Positions 23,892 to 35,139 of a stretch of 53,150 bases of DNA are shown here, piece by piece (position 1 is the first letter of the stretch; every line of letters starts with the position of its first letter). The translations under genes were made by a program, and so were the position numbers. The DNA comes from Synergistaceae bacterium (lineage in GTDB: Bacteria > Synergistota > Synergistia > Synergistales > Aminobacteriaceae): contig JAFSSM010000013.1 of NCBI GenBank assembly GCA_017451025.1, positions 1-53,150 of the forward strand, written 5' to 3'. The notes below the pieces were generated by a model. It was not told where the DNA came from. It did no database searches and saw only the letters and a list, made by a program, of their open reading frames with translations.

Positions 23892-26800
23892 TTATTTTCT
23901 GCGCAATGTTAAGCCCGCAAGAACAGCAAGTGCCAGAACTCCGAACCCGGCATCGCATCCGCCGCCGGAACTTCCCACATCATTATCTGCAGTGTTGTCG
24001 TTGGGAGTGTTGCCTCCGTTATTCGGAGTGTCATTGCCGCCCGCAGAGTCATCTGCTGTCGTTATCATCGGTGCGTACTCATTGCCGGGCTCCATGTATG
24101 CTGCAACGTTGACGTTCATGCTTGCCGGGACTGTGTCAAGCTGATTCCCGTCATCATCCACGAAAACACAAGCACCATCTTCTTCGGCTGAGGCTGAGAC
24201 CTGCGCGCCTGAGACAGCGTTTACGTTCATGAGCACGAAGATCGGATCGCCGACACTAAGTCCTGTTTCAGCGAGGCTCACACCAAAAACATAGATTGCT
24301 GGTCTGGGCACAACGATAATCGGAAGAACGAGTACCGGACTCTGTCCCGCAGGAACCGCCGCCAATTCTTCAGGTGAGGCTTCTCTTTCGCCGCCGCTCA
24401 TAGCATCTTCAGGAAGCTCCGCAACTTCTGTATCACCGGTTATGAAGCTGAATAATGCCTGGAAGAAGCTCGTTATCCTGCCAAGAATTGTTGTGTTGGT
24501 CATGCTGAAACTTGGCCGTGAAGGAGTTACGAACACAGGGCCGCTATTTCCTGAGTTGTCGCCGCCGGAATTACCGCCGTTGTTGCCGGAATTGCCGCCG
24601 TTGTTATCGCCGGAATTGTCTCCGCCAGAGTTATCACCTGAGTTGTCGCCGCCGGAGTTATCACCGGAGTTGTCGCCACCAGAATTATCACCGGAGTTAT
24701 CCCCGCCGGAATTGTCGCCCGAGTTATCTCCGCCAGAGTTATCTCCGGAATTATCGCCTGTGCTATCGCCTCCGGAATTATTGTCCGTGTTCCCTGAGTT
24801 ATTGCCGGAATTATCACTGCCGCCGCTATTCTGCCCAGAGTTGCCGCCAGAACCAGAAGAAGACACTTCCTCAATGTAAATCGTTACCTTGATGTGAGAG
24901 TCCCTGACTCCGTCGGCTATCAGTGTCTCTCCCTCGTCAGAGAGCAGATAGCTTCCTTCCTCAATTTCGCTCTGCGCGCAGTCTGCGGCCATTGCGCCAT
25001 AGTTCAGCATGATTGACCCGTCGCTGGAGATTATTACGCCGCCTCCAACAAGCCCGGTTACGTCGCGGGAAATTCCGTCGGCCTGGAGCAGGACTATCCT
25101 CAATCCTGCCTTCGCAAAGTCCGCAGATGACGGAGCACGCCATTCCTCATAGAATTTTGGCAGAGCGTTGAAGACTGAGTAGACCTTTTCGTAAAGAGCA
25201 CTGCCCAGCGTCGACGAGGTCATGTTCATAACTTTGCTGAAGCCCACTATTCCGGTGTAGTCGCTAGATATTCCGTCTAAGACTATGTCGAACGAAAATC
25301 CTGACCCGCTTATTCCCGCAGAGTAGTCCTCTGTTTTGTTGCCGGCAATCGATGTGTAGTCTGTGGCGTTCACGAATTTGTTCGCGTCCAGAACTTCGTC
25401 AATCGAGTCGGCGTATCCTCTTGGAGACAGAAGGAAGGATAATTTTGCACCGTTGTTGTCGGGAGATACTATGCTGCTGGTTACGTCAGTGGTGAAAATT
25501 TCGACGGTAACAGCAAGGTCCGAGTACTTTTCTGTGCCGAACAGTGCCTTGTATTTTCCCGCAGAGAGACTCGCATCAAGAATCAGCACATCGCCGGAAT
25601 ACGTGTACATTTTCGGGCTGAGTGCTGAGGCGTGGCGAATACTCGGCGTAACCGAAACTATGTCGTAAGACACATCAGACGACAAACCTTCGAACTTTAT
25701 GGTGATGGGGGCTCCTGTTCCGGCCATAATTCCGTGCGTACCTTCGGGGTATTCGCAGCTTACTGTGGCCGTGCTCTGGAGCTTCAGGTATACGCTGCAG
25801 CTCACCACTACATCAGGAATATCCTTCAGCATGTACTGAATTTTCGTGATGGTCTTTCCGGCCAAGTCCGAAGTGTAGTCATAATCCCTGCTGATCCCGT
25901 GAGGCTCGACGAACTCCTTGTAGCTCAGGGCTATATCGTTTGCGCTGAACCATAAATTGCTGTTGTGCCTGAGGCCGTAGACATCTCCGCTTGAAGTTGT
26001 GATAAGCGCGCCAAGAAAATATCCAGTGTCTCCGCTCCCAAGAGTAACGTCAACGCTCGACACATTCAGCATGTAATTTCCCCAAGTGGCACCTGCACCG
26101 CTCAGGAGAGTTACTACTGCATCATCAGCGTACTCATACTCGGTGAGCATTTCGCCGAAGCTCCCGTCAGCACTCACTAACTTATACTCGCTGAATGCCT
26201 CGCTGCTCCACGCATAACGTTCATCCTTGCTCAATAACTGGTATACATTTTCGGTCATTGCCACATGTACAGCTTTTACGCCGGTAATATCCCGTCCGCC
26301 CTTGTCGTTGGAGACGCTGGCTAACTGGGTGAAGCGTCCTGCTATTCTTGCTGTGGGGGAACTTACCGCGTCAAGCCCGGCATCCCACAAATCACTTGAT
26401 GACGTTCCAACTTCTCCTGCGTAGAACTCCGCCCACGTCATATCGGTCTCTGCGTAATAGTAATTCGCCGCAACCGTGAACTCCGCGCTTATGTCCGTAT
26501 ATCCTTCTGCTTCAAGAATGACCGTGTAATCTCCTGCCGGAACATCTCCGTTTATAGTCAGGACGTTATTTGCGTAAGTGTAGTCAGTGAAATTTGTGCG
26601 GGTTCTGCCTTTTCCGGAATAGATCGACGTTACGCTGTAAGTTACTCCGTCGGGCAGGTCTGCGAATTTCAGGGGGATTGCTAGATTCTTCCCGGCTGTA
26701 ATTTTGTCGGCGGAAACCGCTGCTGAGGCTTTGGAGATGGGCGGAATGTACACATCACAGCTTATCACCACGTCAGGAATATCCTTGAGCATGTAGGTTA

Positions 26801-27359
26801 TCTTGGTGATGGTCTGTCCTTCGAGGCTCCGGGTGTACTTGTAGCTCCTCTCTACACCGTTTCCGTGAGGTTCAACGTAGTCATTGCTCACGCAGAAGGC
26901 TATTGTGTCCGCGTCCGAGTAAATATTGTTGTTGTGCCTCATGCCGAAAATATCGCCGCTCTTGGTCTCAAGCAATACTCCCAGATATTTGCGGGCTACC
27001 TTGTCGCCGCTCAACCCTATATCGAGACTTACGCCGGAAATCTTCATCGTGTAATGTCCCCAAGCACTGGACGCTCCTGTTGTGAGAGTTATCACGGCAT
27101 CCTTCGAGACCAGCGCAGCCTCACTAACCATTTTCCCGAATGTCCCGTCAGAGTTTACGTCCTTGTACTCGCTGAACACATCAGTGCTGAACGTGTAGCG
27201 TGATTTGTCAGCAAGAGCATTGTACACGTCGCCGGTCATACGAACCTGAACGGCCTTCTCTCCGGAAATTACTGTGCCTGCAACATCAGGAGAAACTGCT
27301 CCCCCACAAAAGCGGAAAACGCTGGAACTTGCTCGTTGTCGGTGTGCTGATTGCATCAA
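23892..27359 (-). CDS. surface protein, C-terminal part with Synerg-CTERM sorting signal (downstream of a frameshift)
   Basis: Open frame of 1155 codons continuing the surface protein that begins at 28518; the two overlap in different frames near 27286-27359. It holds the rest of module copy 2, a full copy 3 (starting TDMTWAEFYAGEVG) and a further beta-rich domain. A Gly/Asn/Ser/Asp linker, two short domains and the C-terminus GGGCDAGFG-(hydrophobic)-LRRK follow. That tail has the layout of the Synerg-CTERM signal: Gly-Cys, membrane helix, basic end, cleaved by a dedicated protease. The first codons here (MMQSAHRQRASS) are not a plausible start. So this is a broken gene, a programmed shift, or a sequencing error. 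Confidence 0.8.
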   Translation of the reverse strand: MMQSAHRQRASSSVFRFCGGAVSPDVAGTVISGEKAVQVRMTGDVYNALADKSRYTFSTDVFSEYKDVNSDGTFGKMVSEAALVSKDAVITLTTGASSAWGHYTMKISGVSLDIGLSGDKVARKYLGVLLETKSGDIFGMRHNNNIYSDADTIAFCVSNDYVEPHGNGVERSYKYTRSLEGQTITKITYMLKDIPDVVISCDVYIPPISKASAAVSADKITAGKNLAIPLKFADLPDGVTYSVTSIYSGKGRTRTNFTDYTYANNVLTINGDVPAGDYTVILEAEGYTDISAEFTVAANYYYAETDMTWAEFYAGEVGTSSSDLWDAGLDAVSSPTARIAGRFTQLASVSNDKGGRDITGVKAVHVAMTENVYQLLSKDERYAWSSEAFSEYKLVSADGSFGEMLTEYEYADDAVVTLLSGAGATWGNYMLNVSSVDVTLGSGDTGYFLGALITTSSGDVYGLRHNSNLWFSANDIALSYKEFVEPHGISRDYDYTSDLAGKTITKIQYMLKDIPDVVVSCSVYLKLQSTATVSCEYPEGTHGIMAGTGAPITIKFEGLSSDVSYDIVSVTPSIRHASALSPKMYTYSGDVLILDASLSAGKYKALFGTEKYSDLAVTVEIFTTDVTSSIVSPDNNGAKLSFLLSPRGYADSIDEVLDANKFVNATDYTSIAGNKTEDYSAGISGSGFSFDIVLDGISSDYTGIVGFSKVMNMTSSTLGSALYEKVYSVFNALPKFYEEWRAPSSADFAKAGLRIVLLQADGISRDVTGLVGGGVIISSDGSIMLNYGAMAADCAQSEIEEGSYLLSDEGETLIADGVRDSHIKVTIYIEEVSSSGSGGNSGQNSGGSDNSGNNSGNTDNNSGGDSTGDNSGDNSGGDNSGDNSGGDNSGDNSGGDNSGDNSGGDNSGDNSGGDNSGDNNGGNSGNNGGNSGGDNSGNSGPVFVTPSRPSFSMTNTTILGRITSFFQALFSFITGDTEVAELPEDAMSGGEREASPEELAAVPAGQSPVLVLPIIVVPRPAIYVFGVSLAETGLSVGDPIFVLMNVNAVSGAQVSASAEEDGACVFVDDDGNQLDTVPASMNVNVAAYMEPGNEYAPMITTADDSAGGNDTPNNGGNTPNDNTADNDVGSSGGGCDAGFGVLALAVLAGLTLRRK
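24540..24865 (-). repeat. low-complexity NSGGD/NSGD tandem repeat in the surface protein
   Basis: About 105 codons of Asn, Ser, Gly and Asp, with a core of six or so 27-base units encoding NSGGDNSGD. The acidic, flexible run separates the folded modules from the C-terminal anchor region, so it probably spans the envelope. Internal identity makes it prone to expansion, contraction and misassembly. Confidence 0.85.
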
Positions 27360-28518
27360 GCCCCGCAGTCTCGAGAGCTTTTGCTGTTTTGCCGGTCTCT
27401 GCCGCGTAAAACTCAGCCCAGCTCATGTTTGTGGTCGCGTAATAGTCCGATGCAGTGATGTCCACAACTATATCGACATACGAAGAATCCGTGAATGTAG
27501 CTGTGTAGCTTCCGGCCTCAAGTTTCGTGAATGTGAGGACTCCGCCGGAATATGTGTAGTCAGTTCCCGACGTGAGGGTTTCGCTCTCATGGTGGCCTGT
27601 GATTTTTTCGACAGCACCCAGCGAATACGAAGCATCTGCTGGAATATCACTCGATACCAAAGTTACCTTCACGCTGCTTCCAGATTTTACATCACCAGAT
27701 ACCTTGATATTACCAAGACTCCAGTTTTTCACGTAGACATCGCAAGAAATCACTACATCAGGCTGATTCTTGAGCATGTAGGTGATTTTCTTGATGGTAT
27801 TGCCCGGAAGGTCTGCGGTGTGTGCATAAGAGAGGTGAGTACCGTTTCTTTCAGCAAAATCCTGAATGCTGAAGCCTACCTGCTGTGCAAAATCTCCCCT
27901 CACCCATAAATTATGAAGGGGCTTCATTCCGTAGACTTTGCCGTCGTCAGTCTCGAGAGTTGCGCCCAAAAATTTATCGTAGCTCGTCCCGACGCTGACA
28001 TCGAGGCTGGCCCAGTTTAACCCGGAAATATTGAGCCTGTAGTTTCCGTGCCCGTTGGAGAGTCCTCCGGCTAATGCTACCTTCAGGCCGGAAATTTTGG
28101 CGGATGCGTCGGTTGAGGTACTGACCATTTTTCCGAACGTTCCGTCCGCGTTCAAGTCCTTGTACTCGTCGAAGGAAGCACGGCTCAATGTGTAGCGTGA
28201 TGTGTCAGCCATAGCACTATACACGTCCGAGCTGATTCTTACCTGCACTGCCTTGACCCCGGAGAACACCGAGCCGTCTCCTGAGGTCTTGGCCAGGAAT
28301 CCGCCGCTGAACCTGTCGACGAAACGCGCTGTTGCGGTACTGACGGCATCATAGCTTACCGCGAGGTTTGCGGGAGAAGTTCCGAGTTCTCCTGCGTAAA
28401 ATTCGGCCCAAGTCATATCGGTAACAGCATACACATACGGCTCAGAGGCAAGGGCCGTTCCTGCGCCCAGCACCACAATAACAGCAAGTGCAAGGCATAA
28501 TTTCCTGAACATGTTCAC
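27286..28518 (-). CDS. surface protein, N-terminal part (upstream of a frameshift)
   Basis: 410 codons from GTG 28518, with GGAG 11 bases upstream; ATG 28512 is an alternative. A signal peptide (MFRKLCLALAVIVVLGAGTALA) is followed by module copy 1 (about 230 residues: TDMTWAEFYAGELG, then GVKAVQVRISSDVYSAM, YMLKNQPDVVISCDVYV) and a short beta domain, then the start of copy 2 (TNMSWAEFYAAETG). It ends at a TGA soon after copy 2 begins, with the unrelated tail FPLLWGSSFS. In copies 1 and 3 the sequence continues, so the reading frame was lost here. The xxWAEFYAxE modules recall those in Tp47-like surface proteins of gut bacteria, which is a weak resemblance. Full-length product would be about 1540 residues. 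Confidence 0.8.
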   Translation of the reverse strand: MNMFRKLCLALAVIVVLGAGTALASEPYVYAVTDMTWAEFYAGELGTSPANLAVSYDAVSTATARFVDRFSGGFLAKTSGDGSVFSGVKAVQVRISSDVYSAMADTSRYTLSRASFDEYKDLNADGTFGKMVSTSTDASAKISGLKVALAGGLSNGHGNYRLNISGLNWASLDVSVGTSYDKFLGATLETDDGKVYGMKPLHNLWVRGDFAQQVGFSIQDFAERNGTHLSYAHTADLPGNTIKKITYMLKNQPDVVISCDVYVKNWSLGNIKVSGDVKSGSSVKVTLVSSDIPADASYSLGAVEKITGHHESETLTSGTDYTYSGGVLTFTKLEAGSYTATFTDSSYVDIVVDITASDYYATTNMSWAEFYAAETGKTAKALETAGLDAISTPTTSKFQRFPLLWGSSFS

Positions 28519-28744: not shown

Positions 28745-28773
28745 TTGACAGGATAAGTTTTCGCGTCTATTAT
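28745..28773 (+). promoter_or_regulatory. sigma70-type promoter of the dap operon
   Basis: TTGACA (28745-28750), 17-base spacer, TATTAT (28768-28773). The predicted start is near 28780, giving a leader of about 215 bases before dapA. It is one of the best promoter matches in the window. Confidence 0.8.
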
Positions 28774-28818
28774 TTCACGCATTCACAATAAATTGCGAAA
28801 AAAGGAGGCTATAGAGAT

Positions 28819-28893
28819 ATGCTGCAGAATAACTGCGGAATGTCTTTGTGCCTCAAAATAAAGCGTAACTGTCTCGTGTTCTATGGTGAATAA
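28819..28893 (+). CDS. putative 24-residue leader peptide upstream of dapA
   Basis: ATG 28819 with GGAGG (28804-28808) ten bases upstream; 24 codons then TAA 28891. The peptide begins MLQNNCGMSLCLKIKRNC and ends LVFYGE. It has three Cys, two Lys (codons 13 and 15), an adjacent Arg and four Leu. The last five codons contain the left arm of an inverted repeat that pairs with the loop of the terminator before dapA. This is the layout of a translated attenuator leader. No known leader peptide was recognised. Confidence 0.6.
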   Translation: MLQNNCGMSLCLKIKRNCLVFYGE

Positions 28894-28944
28894 CGGACAG
28901 ATAATGTTTATGCATATTCAGAGCCGCTCTTTCACGATAGAACA
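28877..28944 (+). promoter_or_regulatory. putative antiterminator pairing in the dap leader
   Basis: 28877-28890 (TGTTCTATGGTGAA) is complementary to 28931-28944 (TTCACGATAGAACA) in 13 of 14 positions, with one G-G mismatch. The right half covers the terminator loop and two bases of its stem, so this helix and the terminator should exclude each other. The left half overlaps the end of the leader peptide frame and would be covered by a ribosome finishing it. Confidence 0.55.
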
Positions 28945-28960
28945 AAGGGGCGGCTTTTTT
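28922..28960 (+). terminator. intrinsic terminator in the dapA leader (attenuator)
   Basis: AGCCGCTCTTT (28922-28932) pairs with AAGGGGCGGCT (28945-28955): 11 bp including two G-U pairs, loop of 12 bases, followed by TTTTTTGTG. It lies 36 bases before the dapA ATG and downstream of the operon promoter, with no full gene between, so it must regulate dapA rather than end another gene. Confidence 0.8.
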
Positions 28961-28995
28961 GTGTGCACATAATTTTTCAGGAGGTTAGTTTATTC

Positions 28996-29883
28996 ATGAC
29001 AGACAGCCCTATTTTCAGAGGAGTTGCTACAGCTCTGATCACTCCGCTCAACGAATACGGAGTAGATTATGATGCTTTTGGCCGCGTAATCGACTGGCAG
29101 TGCGAACAGGGAATTAACGCCCTCGTGATCGCAGGAACAACAGGTGAAGGATCTACGCTCGACGACGCAGAGCACAAGGCAGTGGTGAAGTTCGCAGTGG
29201 AGAGAATCGCCGGACGGTGCAAGGTAATTTCCGCGACAGGCTCAAACGATACGGCGTATGCCCTTCAGCTCTCGAAGTTCGCGTGCGACGTAGGCTCTGA
29301 TGCATTGCTGGTTATCACTCCCTACTACAACAAGGCCACCCAGAACGGCCTCATCAAAATGTTCACGGCCATTGCCGACGCTTCGACGAAACCCCTCATT
29401 CTCTACAACGTTCCTTCGCGCACAGGCGTAAACATTGAGCCGGAGACATACGCCGCCGTAGCAGATCACCCCATGATTGCGGGCATAAAGGAAGCTAACT
29501 CCAACATCAGCAAAATCGTCCACACAGCACAGTTAATTGGCGATAAGCTGGACATCTATTCGGGCAATGACGACCAGATTGTGCCTATTCTCTCGATGGG
29601 CGGGCAGGGCGTAATTTCCGTGCTGTCGAACGTTGCGCCTAAGCAGACTATGGCGATTTGCGAAAAGTTCTTTGCGGGCGACGTGAAGGGTGCGGCGGAA
29701 TTGCAGTGCAGGTATCTTCCGCTCATCAATGCGCTGTTCAGTGAGGTCAACCCGATTCCGGTGAAGGCGGCGATGGCGGCTATGGGCTGGTGCAAAAATT
29801 ATCTGCGTATGCCTCTGACACCGATGGAGCCTGCTCATTGGGAGAAGCTGAAGGGCTTAATGCAGGAGCAGGGGTTAATCTAG
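28996..29883 (+). CDS. dapA: 4-hydroxy-tetrahydrodipicolinate synthase
   Basis: 295 residues from ATG 28996, with AGGAGG 12 bases upstream; an earlier frame start at 28963 lies against the terminator. Condenses pyruvate with aspartate semialdehyde, the first committed step to lysine and diaminopimelate. Signatures: GTTGEGSTL, the YNVPSRTGVN stretch with the catalytic Tyr, and the Schiff-base Lys in IAGIKEAN. First gene of dapA-dapB-dapH-deacetylase-lysC, and probably controlled by the leader described above. Confidence 0.97.
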   Translation: MTDSPIFRGVATALITPLNEYGVDYDAFGRVIDWQCEQGINALVIAGTTGEGSTLDDAEHKAVVKFAVERIAGRCKVISATGSNDTAYALQLSKFACDVGSDALLVITPYYNKATQNGLIKMFTAIADASTKPLILYNVPSRTGVNIEPETYAAVADHPMIAGIKEANSNISKIVHTAQLIGDKLDIYSGNDDQIVPILSMGGQGVISVLSNVAPKQTMAICEKFFAGDVKGAAELQCRYLPLINALFSEVNPIPVKAAMAAMGWCKNYLRMPLTPMEPAHWEKLKGLMQEQGLI

Positions 29884-29885
29884 TC

Positions 29886-30611
29886 ATGAAGTTAATCATC
29901 AACGGTGCCGCCGGAAAAATGGGGCACATGATCGCTAAGATGGCAGGCAGTGAGAACATTGCGGCTCTTGTTGACGTTATGGGCGGCGAGGGCATCTGCA
30001 AGAATCTTGACGAGTTCACGGGAGAAGCTGACTGCGTAATAGACTTCACCACGCACAAGGCAACACCGAACGTTGTCGGGTATTGCGTGAAGCGCGGCCT
30101 TCCCGTCCTTATCGCAACAACCGGCCAGACAGAGGAGGAGCTTGCGCAGGTACGTGAAGCCGCAAAAAAGATTCCGGTGTTCATTTCGCCCAATATGTCG
30201 ATCGGCGTTGCACTGGTCGCTGACTTGGCCGAAAGGACAGCAAGAATCTTCGGGGACTGCGATATTGAGCTGATAGAGGCTCACCACAACCAGAAGCTCG
30301 ATGTTCCGAGCGGTACAGCACTGATGCTCGCAAAGAGAGTCCAGGAAGCACGCGAAAGCCTCACCTTCAACATCGGCAGACACGAAAACGGCAAGCGTAC
30401 CGCAAACGAAATCGGGATTCACTCCCTGCGTTACGGAACTGAAGTCGGGACTCACGAGCTGATATTCTCCAACGGCCTCGAAACTATCACCATCAGGCAT
30501 GACGCAAAGGACAGGGCATTATTCGCACGCGGAGCACTGTCTGCCGCAAAATGGCTAGTGAATCAGCCCGCAGGACTCTACGGAATGCGCGATTTTCTCA
30601 AGGAGGCTTAA
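29886..30611 (+). CDS. dapB: 4-hydroxy-tetrahydrodipicolinate reductase
   Basis: 241 residues from ATG 29886, two bases after dapA. NAD(P)H-dependent second step of the pathway. The nucleotide motif is INGAAGKMG (residues 4-12). Also visible are [25 protein letters not shown], and the catalytic region [16 protein letters not shown] longer frame upstream lies inside dapA and is rejected. AGGAGG for the next gene lies in its last codons. Confidence 0.96.
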
Positions 30612-30616
30612 TCTCA

Positions 30617-31315
30617 ATGGACGCTCAGGATATTATCAGCTTGATTGCAAACGCAAAGAAGTTTACGCCCGTCAAGATTTACCTGAAGGAACGCGAAGAG
30701 ATAGATTTTTCGGGGACTAACGCGCGTATTTTCGGGACAGGCGACCGAATTATCTTCGGGGACTGGGAGGAAATTGCTCCTGTCCTCATGTCCCACAATG
30801 ACCTCATCGCCGATATGGTCATCGAGAACGCAGCCAGGAACTCGGCAATTCCGCTTCTCGACATCAAGAATATTCACGCCCGTATTGAGCCGGGCGCAAT
30901 CATCAGGGACAACGTTACGATAGGCGAGAACGCAGTTATCATGATGGGCGCAATCATCAATATCGGCGCAGTTATCGGCGAGGGCACGATGATAGACATG
31001 GGTGCGGTTCTCGGAGGACGCGCAACTGTCGGGAAGAACTGCCACATCGGAGCAGGTGCAGTTCTAGCAGGAGTAATTGAGCCGGCGAGCGCAAAGCCCG
31101 TAGTCATTGACGACAATGTGCTTGTCGGGGCAAATGCCGTAGTGATTGAGGGAGTGCACGTCGGTGAAGGAGCAGTAGTCGCCGCCGGAGCTATTGTTGT
31201 TGATGACGTTGAACCCGGAAAAGTTGTCGCGGGGTGCCCTGCAAGAGTCATCAAGGACAAGGACGAAAACACTACGATGAAGACAGCACTCCAGAAGAAG
31301 CTGCGGAAAATATGA
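30617..31315 (+). CDS. dapH: tetrahydrodipicolinate N-acetyltransferase
   Basis: 232 residues from ATG 30617, with AGGAGG upstream. The N-terminal DapH domain ([15 protein letters not shown] ... [11 protein letters not shown]) is followed by a left-handed beta-helix of hexapeptide repeats ([36 protein letters not shown]). The sequence resembles B. subtilis DapH throughout, so the acetylase rather than succinylase branch is used. The stop codon overlaps the next gene as ATGA. Confidence 0.95.
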
Positions 31316-32454
31316 GCATAGATTTTTTGAAGGAAGCCGAATCTCTCCGGCCAAGACTTACGGAAATACGCAAGGCACTTCACCGTTCTCCGGAAATCGG
31401 CGACCACGAATACAGGACTGCGGAAATTCTGGAGGCTGAACTCGACTCGCTCGGCATTCCTCATCACAGACTGCTCGATACCGCAATTGTTGCCCGCATT
31501 GACGGCAAAAAGCCGGGCAAAAATTCGGCGATACGTTCGGACATTGACGCACTGCCTGTGAATGAGGCTACAGGGTGCGATTTCGCGAGCCAGAACCCCG
31601 GAGTGATGCACGCCTGCGGCCACGACGTACACATGACCAGCGCGCTCGGTGCCGCAATGATTCTGAGTGCTCACCGTGAAGAACTTTGCGGGAGCGTGTC
31701 GATTCTGTTCCAGCCCAACGAGGAAGGCGACGGCGGAGCTGACAGAATGATTAAGGCCGGAGTCCTCGAGGGGATTGATGCAGTCTTCGGGTGCCATGTT
31801 GACCCTGCGCTTCCGGCGGGGCATATCGGCATAAAATACGGGAATTTCTACGCGGCATCTGCGACGTTCAAGATTACGGTCATAGGCAAATCCGCACACG
31901 GTGCACAGCGCGACAAAGGCATAGACTCAATCGAGGCGGCCTGTGCAATAATTCCCGAAGCCCTCAAGATTCAGGGAGGGGTTGTGTCTGTCGGGACAAT
32001 TCACGCCGGAACTGCCAACAACATACTTGCCGGAACGTGCGAGTTCACCGGAATAATCAGGACTTACGGCACCGACGAACGCGCAAGGATGTGCAGGGAG
32101 CTTGAGGCAGTCTGCGTTGAAGCAGCTGGACGTTTCGGGGCAAAGTGCAGGTGCGAAATCACGGACTCGTGTCCGGGAATCGTCAATGACAACGACGCAC
32201 TAACCTCACTGGCAGAGAGAACAGCACGTGAAGTTCTCGGAGATTCTCGTGTCGACGTAATCGAGAAGCCGTTATTCATCAGTGAGGACTTCGGATTCTT
32301 CCTGATGGCACGAACTGGCTGCTTCTACCATGTCGGTGCAGGGTGCGGTTACCCCCTTCACAGCGACCACTTCCTGCCCGTTCCGGAGGCGTTCATCACA
32401 GCTTCGGCAGTACATGCTGCCGTCGTAATGCAATACAACAAGGCGAAGGAGTAA
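31312..32454 (+). CDS. M20 amidohydrolase, probable N-acetyl-diaminopimelate deacetylase
   Basis: 380 residues from ATG 31312. Peptidase M20D family with metal ligands in HACGHDVHM, the acidic pair in QPNEEGDGG, and His in [13 protein letters not shown]. The dimerisation domain begins at about residue 175 ([15 protein letters not shown]). Directly after dapH, coupled by ATGA overlap, so the most likely role is removing acetyl from N-acetyl-LL-diaminopimelate. Related M20D enzymes act on hippurate or indole-acetyl conjugates, and sequence alone does not exclude that. No N-acetyl-diaminopimelate aminotransferase or dapF is in this window. Confidence 0.88.
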
Positions 32455-32460
32455 CACAGC

Positions 32461-33789
32461 TTGAACAACATCATTACTGCAAAATTCGGAGGAACATCGT
32501 TAGCTGATGCCTCACAGATAAAGAAAGCCTGCGCAATAATTACGGCCAAGCCAGAGCGCAGATATGTCGTAGCCTCAGCACCGGGCAAGAGGTACTCTGA
32601 GGACATCAAGATTACGGACATGCTCTACAAGGCCCACTCTCAGGCAAAAGCAGGAGAAGATTTCGCGGACACTCTGCGTGATATTTCTGACCGTTACTCG
32701 AAGATAATTGACGGTCTGGGCATAACGTTTGACATTGACGCTGAAATTCGGGAGATAGGGGAAAAGCTCAAGGCAGGGACGACTCCGGATTACCCTGCTT
32801 CAAGGGGCGAATACATCAACTCAAAAATTATCGCGGCGTTTCTTGGCTGGCCGTTCGTCGATGCGGCTGAAGGAATATTCTTCACTGAGGCCGGAGCACT
32901 CGATGAGTCCAAGACGTTCCAGACGCTCGGAGAAATTCTGCTTAAGCATGAACGTGCAGTAGTACCTGGATTTTACGGCTCGCTTCCTGACGGGAGCATT
33001 AAGACTTTTTCGCGCGGAGGCTCTGACGTTACCGGCTCAATAGTTGCCCGCGCAGTGAACGCAGATTTATACGAGAACTGGACGGACGTATCTGGAATGC
33101 TCAGTGCTGACCCCAGAATCGTCAAGAACCCAAAAGTCATTGAGCACATAACCTACACGGAGCTTCGCGAGCTGTCCTACATGGGAGCGAGTGTTCTTCA
33201 CGAGGATGCAGTTTTCCCGGTGAGGCAGGCAGGAATCCCCATCAACATACGCAACACCAACAGGCCGGACGATGCCGGCACGCTGATATCCGCATCTCTT
33301 CCTGAAGGCGTAAAGCGTCCCATCGTTACGGGAATAGCCGGGCGCAAGGGCTTTTGTTCTGTGCGCGTGGAAAAATCCATGATGAACGGCGAGACAGGGT
33401 TCGGTGCGAAACTGCTTCAGGTTTTTGCGCAGAAGGGCATTCCGTTTGAGCACTGCCCGACGGGAATTGACACCATTTCGGTTGTCGTGAACGGTTCGGC
33501 CTTCGAGAGCAGACGCAGTGAGATTCTCCAGGACATCAAGAATGTACTGGCTCCTGATTTCGTTACGATCGAGAAGGGACTGTCCGCTATAGCTGTGGTA
33601 GGTGCGGGAATGGTAAGCGTAAAGGGTGTAGCCGCAAAGGTATTCGGTGCGCTCGCAAACGCAGGAATAAACATCAGGATGATAGATCAGGGTTCCGACG
33701 AGCTGAACATAATCGTAGGAGTAGATGATTCTGACTATGAGAAGGCCGTAAATGCCCTGTATAATACAATGATAAATAACCAGTCATAA
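32461..33789 (+). CDS. lysC: aspartate kinase with tandem ACT domains
   Basis: 442 residues from TTG 32461, with GGAG nine bases upstream; no ATG fits. Phosphorylates aspartate. Catalytic features intact: KFGGTSL at the N-terminus, SRGEYI, TFSRGGSDVTGSIVARAV, and WTDVSGMLSADPRIV. Two ACT domains at about 310-440 (ITGIAGRKGFCSVRVEK; IAVVGAGMVSVKGVAAKVF) suggest feedback control by lysine or another amino acid. An inserted region at about 60-115 is longer than in E. coli LysC, as seen in some clostridial enzymes. Seven bases after the deacetylase gene. Confidence 0.94.
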   Translation: MNNIITAKFGGTSLADASQIKKACAIITAKPERRYVVASAPGKRYSEDIKITDMLYKAHSQAKAGEDFADTLRDISDRYSKIIDGLGITFDIDAEIREIGEKLKAGTTPDYPASRGEYINSKIIAAFLGWPFVDAAEGIFFTEAGALDESKTFQTLGEILLKHERAVVPGFYGSLPDGSIKTFSRGGSDVTGSIVARAVNADLYENWTDVSGMLSADPRIVKNPKVIEHITYTELRELSYMGASVLHEDAVFPVRQAGIPINIRNTNRPDDAGTLISASLPEGVKRPIVTGIAGRKGFCSVRVEKSMMNGETGFGAKLLQVFAQKGIPFEHCPTGIDTISVVVNGSAFESRRSEILQDIKNVLAPDFVTIEKGLSAIAVVGAGMVSVKGVAAKVFGALANAGINIRMIDQGSDELNIIVGVDDSDYEKAVNALYNTMINNQS

Positions 33790-33813
33790 ACTTTCGGAGA
33801 GAAGTGAATATAT

Positions 33814-35139
33814 TTGAGCCTTATTGTCTCCAAATTCGGAGGTATATCTCTTGCTGATGTCGAGAGCGTAAAGAAAACGGCGGATATTATTCTGTCAGAC
33901 CCTTCAAGGCGTTACGTGGTAGTCTCTGCGCCCGGCATAAGGTCAGGCGACGAAATACGAGTTACCGACATGCTTTACATCTGCCACTCGAGATATGCCA
34001 ACAGGGAAAATTTTACTGAGGTGCTCACCAAAATTGAGGAACGCTACAACGAAATAATCAGCGGACTCGGCGTGAGCGTAGATATGCATTCTGCGATTTC
34101 CGATCTGAAGAAGAATCTGTTTATTGGCCGCAGCAATGAATTTATAGTTTCGCGCGGGGAATATATTATGGGCCAGATACTTGCTGACTATTTGGGCTGG
34201 CCTTTCGTTGACGCTGTGAAGCTGATCGTCTTCAACCGCGACGGTACTCTGAATCTGGAGAAGTCCCTTGCGGCAGTGAAGGAAGTCCTCAGCGGAATGG
34301 ACCACGCAGTAGTACCCGGCTTCTACGGAGCTATAGCCGGAAGCACGACGAACATCAAGACATTTGAGCGCGGAGGCGGAGACGTAACGGCGGCAGTAAT
34401 TGCGCGTGCAATGGAGGCTGATTTGTGCGAGAAGTGGGCAGAAGCGACTGAGGTGTTCAGCGCAGACCCTGCAATCGTCAAGAATCCCGAGATAATCCGC
34501 AACATCACATATGCCGAACTTCGCGAGCTTACTTATATGGGCATAGACATAGTCTATGAGGAAATGATACTTATCCTGCAGGACACGGGAATATCCTTGA
34601 GCATCAGGAATATTCACCACGCTGAAGACAAGGGTACGCTGATTACCGCGACACTTCCTCCTGAGATTGGGCGCAACGTGGCGGCGTGCATAGCTGGTCG
34701 CAGGAACTTCAAGATAGTGCACATACACAAGTTCGGCCTGAACAAGACCGTCGGCATAGGCCGCAAAGTTTTCGGGATATTTTCTGACCGCAGCATCTCG
34801 TGCGAACATTATTTGTCGGGCATCTACCAGTTCTCCATAGTGGTGAAGAGTCCGCTGTTTGACCTGAAACGTGCCGAGATAATCAAGGCACTCAATGACG
34901 CAATCGAGCCTGAGTCTATCGGTGTGGAAACGGACTTGTCGCTGATAGCAGTAATCGGTGAAGGAATGGGCACGGTGAAGGGAATATTCGCCAAGATATT
35001 CAACGCAATAGCCTCTGCGAACGTCAAGGTAAGGATGATTGAGCAGGGGGCGGATGACCTGAATATCTTAATCGGAGTTTATGACGAGGATTTTGACGTT
35101 ACGGTCAGGGCGTTGTACGAGGCAATGATTCAGCAATAA
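33814..35139 (+). CDS. aspartate-kinase paralogue with altered active site
   Basis: 441 residues from TTG 33814. Colinear with the preceding lysC, including both ACT domains, so it arose by tandem duplication. Key positions differ: KFGGTS is KFGGIS (Thr to Ile), RGGSD is RGGGD, and WTDVSG is WAEATE, so the conserved Thr-Asp that contacts aspartate and ATP is gone; SRGEY is kept. The ACT region is well preserved (VIGEGMGTVKGIFAKIF). It may be a regulatory subunit or act on another substrate; low activity is also possible. Same operon, 24 bases after lysC. Confidence 0.85.
   Translation: MSLIVSKFGGISLADVESVKKTADIILSDPSRRYVVVSAPGIRSGDEIRVTDMLYICHSRYANRENFTEVLTKIEERYNEIISGLGVSVDMHSAISDLKKNLFIGRSNEFIVSRGEYIMGQILADYLGWPFVDAVKLIVFNRDGTLNLEKSLAAVKEVLSGMDHAVVPGFYGAIAGSTTNIKTFERGGGDVTAAVIARAMEADLCEKWAEATEVFSADPAIVKNPEIIRNITYAELRELTYMGIDIVYEEMILILQDTGISLSIRNIHHAEDKGTLITATLPPEIGRNVAACIAGRRNFKIVHIHKFGLNKTVGIGRKVFGIFSDRSISCEHYLSGIYQFSIVVKSPLFDLKRAEIIKALNDAIEPESIGVETDLSLIAVIGEGMGTVKGIFAKIFNAIASANVKVRMIEQGADDLNILIGVYDEDFDVTVRALYEAMIQQ

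Follow-up and report, generated by a model that had tools for sequence, protein, structure and literature searches.

The leader of dapA in the window (the whole stretch of 53,150 nucleotides that was analysed, from a contig of a Synergistaceae bacterium) most probably acts as a ribosome-mediated transcription attenuator that senses the supply of lysyl-tRNA, a reading to which we assign a probability of roughly 0.87 from sequence and comparison. An earlier note on this DNA had proposed a leader peptide attenuator of the lysine/diaminopimelate (DAP) operon, and the proposal is supported by the presence of the element in 34 of the 43 genomes of the genus. That note had also called for leaders of relatives to be compared; within the genus, both the small frame and the alternative pairing proved to be conserved, and the helices co-vary.

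Architecture of the dapA leader

All parts of the leader lie on the plus strand. A sigma-70-type promoter, TTGACA-17-TATTAT, is located at positions 28745 to 28773 and matches the consensus at 11 of 12 positions. TTGACA, a spacer of 16 to 18 nucleotides and a −10-like hexamer were found in 30 of 31 leaders scanned, the odd one being cut by a contig end. The promoter is followed by a frame of 24 codons (positions 28819 to 28893, ATG at 28819, stop codon TAA) with AAGGAGG upstream of its start, which is predicted to be translated into MLQNNCGMSLCLKIKRNCLVFYGE. This short frame with its Shine-Dalgarno sequence, placed between the promoter and the first gene, is conserved in 32 genomes. Its control codons, recognized by codon counts in the 32 sequences, are AAA-ATA-AAG-CGT (Lys-Ile-Lys-Arg; 28855 to 28866), with Lys codon 13 (AAA) at 28855 to 28857 and Lys codon 15 (AAG) at 28861 to 28863.

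The leader RNA can form several helices. The 14 bases TGTTCTATGGTGAA (28877 to 28890) are complementary to TTCACGATAGAACA (28931 to 28944) at 13 positions, and duplex comparison extends this antiterminator to a 5′ strand, A (28877 to 28896), which overlaps the end of the leader frame, including its stop codon, and runs through CGG, and a 3′ strand, A′ (28924 to 28944), which is the 5′ arm and loop of the terminator; the pairing thus continues through CGG and the CCG of the terminator 5′ arm. The intrinsic terminator (28920 to 28960), identified from sequence and fold, has its stem at 28920 to 28957 and its U tract, TTTTTT, at 28955 to 28960, and GCCGCTC...GGGCGG with a T run is found at this place in 32 relatives. 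Folding and comparison of cognate with permuted energies delimit an anti-antiterminator, P1, whose 5′ strand starts at the second Lys codon (28861 to 28873); its 3′ strand (28896 to 28913) was placed by folding and duplex comparison. The minimum free energy fold and the same energy comparison define a further hairpin, SL1 (28805 to 28854), in which the Shine-Dalgarno sequence of the leader is paired with codons inside the leader frame, namely, codons 11 and 12 in the window and, in most relatives, codons −10 to −7 counted from the second Lys. The window leader folds with a z score of −7.06 relative to dinucleotide shuffles, none of the 200 shuffles being as good. The promoter, the 24-codon frame with a good ribosome site, the terminator with six T and the 14-base segment whose left partner is formed by the last codons of the frame had been described in the earlier note, and each was recovered, whereas P1, SL1 and the extension of the antiterminator through CGG/CCG were absent from that account.

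No L-box, T-box or other Rfam family reached its gathering score in the window leader, nor was anything meaningful obtained at E values up to 10, in agreement with the note's statement that L-box features are lacking. In particular, the leader has no covariance-model match to the aptamer of the lysine riboswitch (RF00168), no specifier stem with a AGGGUGGUACCGCG antiterminator, and no match to the Rfam leader families (Thr, His, Leu, Trp and others).

The first gene of the controlled operon is dapA (28996 to 29883, ATG at 28996; Pfam DHDPS, 1e-84). The remainder (29880 to 35139; Pfam assignments) comprises dapB, dapH, an M20 peptidase, which its gene context suggests to be N-acetyl-DAP deacetylase-like, and two aspartokinases. 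Together, these genes look like the acetylated-DAP branch of lysine synthesis with its entry enzyme. The second, diverged aspartokinase-like gene (33814 to 35139; AA_kinase, 4.9e-22, and ACT_9) lies directly 3′ of lysC and may have a regulatory role or be partly inactive. Divergent from dapA, two long related frames occupy the minus strand at 23892 to 28518; the first contains a (GDNSG)n low-complexity stretch, and its C-terminal end, SSGGGCDAGFGVLALAVLAGLTLRRK, resembles a sorting signal.

Conservation of the leader peptide

Leaders of dapA were gathered from the genus of the window (43 genomes) and from the family. In 32 genomes the leader core L-K-[I/M]-K-R and the ribosome site are kept, while the length of the frame ranges from 23 to 37 codons (the frames of L013, L028 and L041 were delimited by hand). 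With peptide positions numbered from the second Lys as 0, this residue is present in 32/32 sequences, encoded by AAG in 21 and by AAA in 11, and the first Lys (position −2) is present in 31/32, in each case ahead of the dap/lysC operon. The first two positions of both Lys codons are essentially fixed and nearly all variation falls at the third, which points to a coding constraint. Position −1 is Ile or Met, with the Ile codon ATA in 30/32 and Met in L037 and L039. Arg at position +1 is conserved almost as well as the second Lys (30/32), with Leu in L013 and His in L042. The Lys codons number only two and are not in tandem, and L023 has a single one before Arg. Downstream, the stop codon follows 7 to 14 codons past the second Lys, and the residues between vary in kind and number.

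The earlier note had left the sensed amino acid uncertain because the peptide also contains Cys and Leu codons. A Leu precedes the first Lys in 26/32 sequences but is replaceable, and the three Cys of the window peptide are not conserved in relatives. Together with the invariance of the second Lys under synonymous change, this largely removes the uncertainty, and lysine would, with good confidence, be the amino acid sensed.

Co-variation of the alternative helices

The helices were compared without an alignment, by setting the duplex energies within each of the 32 genomes against those obtained when one strand was permuted among genomes. Cognate strands paired better in all three cases, with −18.3 versus −14.8 kcal/mol for the antiterminator (z = −7.9), −10.3 versus −8.6 kcal/mol for P1 (z = −4.1) and −12.5 versus −10.2 kcal/mol for the pairing of the Shine-Dalgarno sequence with codons in SL1 (z = −5.7), and for each helix 0 of 20,000 permutations was as good, figures that are not strict probabilities because the sequences are related, a kinship that also makes non-cognate pairs resemble cognate ones. 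The antiterminator shows two-sided pair changes at most positions (at one, for example, A-U in 23 and G-C in 9), counted on pairs taken from fitted duplexes, which lean towards structure. The conserved GACGG 3′ of the stop codon is accounted for by its pairing with the CCG of the terminator 5′ arm. Terminator and antiterminator are therefore mutually exclusive and co-varying across the 32 relatives. P1 is weak in seven leaders (L012, L021, L023, L025, L028, L040 and L042) and the antiterminator in one (L015). RNAalifold on a MAFFT alignment recovered the terminator alone, as P1 and the antiterminator cross and are of variable length.

Ribosome position and proposed mechanism

The 32 leaders were each scanned with ribosome footprints of five different sizes. 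When the second Lys codon occupies the A site, the model gives a mean of 12.8 antiterminator pairs before the terminator 3′ arm is transcribed, compared with 8.3 for free RNA and none with the ribosome at the stop codon. On average over the 32 leaders, the antiterminator is most fully formed with the A site within about one codon of the second Lys and abolished at the stop codon, and in full-length folds, whichever of the five footprints is used, the terminator is weakest when the A site lies no more than one to two codons from the second Lys. With the spacing modelled in this way, a stall at the Lys codons would free the antiterminator, which a ribosome at the stop codon would block, consistent with the earlier suggestions that a ribosome halted at the Lys codons leaves the antiterminator free and that one finishing the peptide lets the terminator form. 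The pattern is less clean in the window taken alone. There, A sites at codons 14, 15 and 16, and further upstream, leave the antiterminator available as long as the 3′ arm has yet to be transcribed. In the full-length equilibrium fold, the terminator wins at codon 15 (8.5 of 9 pairs), with switching at codons 14 and 16 only. The model therefore needs the antiterminator to form before the 3′ arm of the terminator, which is the usual order in ribosome-mediated attenuators.

With lysine plentiful, a translating ribosome would reach the stop codon and cover A, so that A′ is free, the terminator forms and transcription ends before dapA. With lysine scarce, the ribosome would halt with Lys codon 13 or 15 in its A site, covering the 5′ strand of P1 and not A; A would then pair with A′, no terminator would form and the dap/lysC operon would be transcribed. 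Without translation, P1 can hold A, which would give a default-off state. SL1 would hide the leader ribosome site and would restrict renewed initiation, since it can fold again immediately behind a ribosome stalled at the Lys codons. The parts, their conservation, co-variation and distances are taken from sequence and comparison; lysine starvation as the signal and the order of folding we infer.

The same architecture might serve an attenuator that senses arginine, lysine and arginine jointly, or isoleucine through the ATA codon. The CGT codon follows the second Lys in 30/32 sequences, inside the stretch where a stall favours antitermination, and ATA is equally frequent, but Arg gives way to Leu or His and Ile to Met in two leaders each, while the second Lys alone is never replaced and switches between both Lys codons. 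As CGT also contributes to the P1 stem, a role that can account for its conservation, and the operon serves DAP and lysine synthesis, with lysine-type control of such genes in other organisms, we regard such sensing as very improbable.

Conservation of the L-K-I-K-R core as protein, and the expected overlap of A with a ribosome held at the stop codon, would also suit a nascent peptide that arrests the ribosome upon sensing free lysine (or a product of the pathway), as TnaC does with tryptophan; a stall at or near the stop codon would then hold the terminator form when lysine is plentiful. If true, LKIKR would do for lysine what TnaC does for tryptophan, in combination with an attenuator. Arrest peptides keep a fixed distance to their stall site, however, whereas here the residues between LKIKR and the stop codon are variable, and it is at the Lys codons that the structures switch, which simple codon starvation explains; this makes arrest very improbable. 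A riboswitch or other metabolite-binding RNA, with the small frame incidental, is extremely improbable. The very stable fold and the lysine riboswitches that control close dapA relatives speak for it, but the leader is without an Rfam match, its most conserved upstream stretch is coding and changes mainly at third positions, and the frame, Shine-Dalgarno sequence and stop codon are kept in 32 genomes though their hairpins diverge. Attenuation by lysyl-tRNA supply thus stays the preferred reading.

Distribution and history of the element

In the 34 genomes that carry it, a covariance model built from the 32 leaders finds the element once per genome and without exception directly upstream of dapA. 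The two partial matches in one of these genomes (G007) are due to an insertion inside its copy, where about 100 nucleotides (within positions 1251 to 1465 of locus L034) separate strand A from the 3′ strand of P1; the insertion carries a CCCCGACTTCAGTCGTGGGG hairpin that gives the impression of an IS200/IS605 end. Across 183 genomes of the order, only two weak matches outside the genus were obtained, seemingly by chance. The weak matches inspected (G135, G181, G032 and G024) are chance hits or ordinary terminators, and no lysine gene was identified next to them; the marginal ones in G032 and G024 are not dapA leaders.

Other sensors precede dapA in relatives. Elsewhere in the family, a T-box stands there in at least six genomes from other genera (E values of 3e-15 to 5e-8, below the Rfam cut-off); the full AGGGUGGUACCGCG element is present, and the specifier, in our own reading of the printed alignments and sequences, is AAA or AAG, both Lys. 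The closest dapA genes outside the genus and its sister genus belong to rumen Clostridia, with a lysine riboswitch upstream in all 17 loci examined and no attenuator found in their dapA leaders. Lysine control of dapA is therefore the rule among relatives. Within the genus, no lysine riboswitch exceeds the cut-off, and T-boxes occur in 2 of 43 genomes, both sub-threshold.

The dapA tree places the genus and its sister genus among rumen Clostridia, apart from the dapA genes with T-boxes. Within the genus, the attenuator characterizes a single subclade (SH-aLRT 95), where it has decayed in one case. In this case (L031, genome G032), the 330 nucleotides before dapA retain the promoter, TGTGAATGACGGACA and part of the terminator, and the leader frame is gone. 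This placement and the clostridial riboswitches suggest that the operon was probably acquired from L-box-bearing Clostridia, with the leader peptide gained later. The habitat of the genus is ruminants, the named Synergistaceae records among its contigs coming from goat, deer and reindeer.

Other leaders of the genus

At 23 of 30 leuA loci of the genus, the gene is preceded by a small frame that conserves an L-A-L(-L-L) run (CTCGCACTACT) and by a terminator-like hairpin (the leuA leaders from other genomes being L183 to L211). The genome of the window has such a leader at positions 1261 to 1500 of its contig C35 (L178), with MFTSFTTALALLLSTADSPGVQ behind TTGACA-17-TACAAT and a hairpin with a T run before leuA. 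These leaders are likely leucine attenuators. In the same genome, no leader peptide attenuator was seen upstream of ilvB or thrC, and no trpE-type gene (PF00425) was found. The leucine leaders and the near-absence of T-boxes suggest that the genus relies more widely on ribosome-based sensing.

Comparison with known systems

Lysine control in bacteria is otherwise known through riboswitches and T-boxes. For Actinobacteria, a survey reports no lysine attenuator and gives the L-box as the means of lysine control (PMC1262725), a survey of lysine riboswitches mentions neither Synergistota nor attenuation or leader peptides (PMC5584792), and the main text of a broad attenuator survey, which describes swaps between T-boxes and leader peptides for other genes, does not mention lysine, dapA or Synergistota (PMC2965389). 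The nearest case in the accessible literature, and the only one found there, is the SEP5 frame of Sinorhizobium meliloti, a suggested leader peptide before an aspartate-family gene; it differs in having six Thr and three Lys codons and in preceding aspartate dehydrogenase, and the passage concerned describes no alternative RNA structures (PMC10117765). Subscription papers lay largely outside this search, so that no outright priority is claimed; the mechanism is known in kind, and lysine as the amino acid and Synergistota as the phylum are apparently new.

Amino acid attenuators are listed for trp, his, leu, thr, ilvGMEDA, ilvBN and pheA of enterobacteria (PMC1183508). The dapA leader shares with them a leader peptide with codons for the product, mutually exclusive antiterminator and terminator, a protector stem from the control codons on and an intrinsic terminator before the operon. 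It differs in the amino acid, the phylum, the presence of only two, non-tandem control codons, the location of the antiterminator strand, with the stop codon, inside the protector hairpin, and the pairing of the leader ribosome site with the leader's own codons. The lysine riboswitch, too, acts on dapA operons, among them the operons of the rumen Clostridia that carry the closest dapA genes, but here a translated frame replaces the aptamer. The lysine T-box (RF00230) likewise senses the state of lysyl-tRNA and precedes dapA in other genera of the family, whereas in this leader tRNA charging would be read through the ribosome and not directly by the RNA. Relatives place dapA under three kinds of sensor, namely, lysine T-boxes (other Synergistaceae), lysine riboswitches (the lineage with the closest dapA) and, in this genus, a putative leader peptide attenuator, and the gene would offer a traceable case of RNA sensor replacement after gene transfer.
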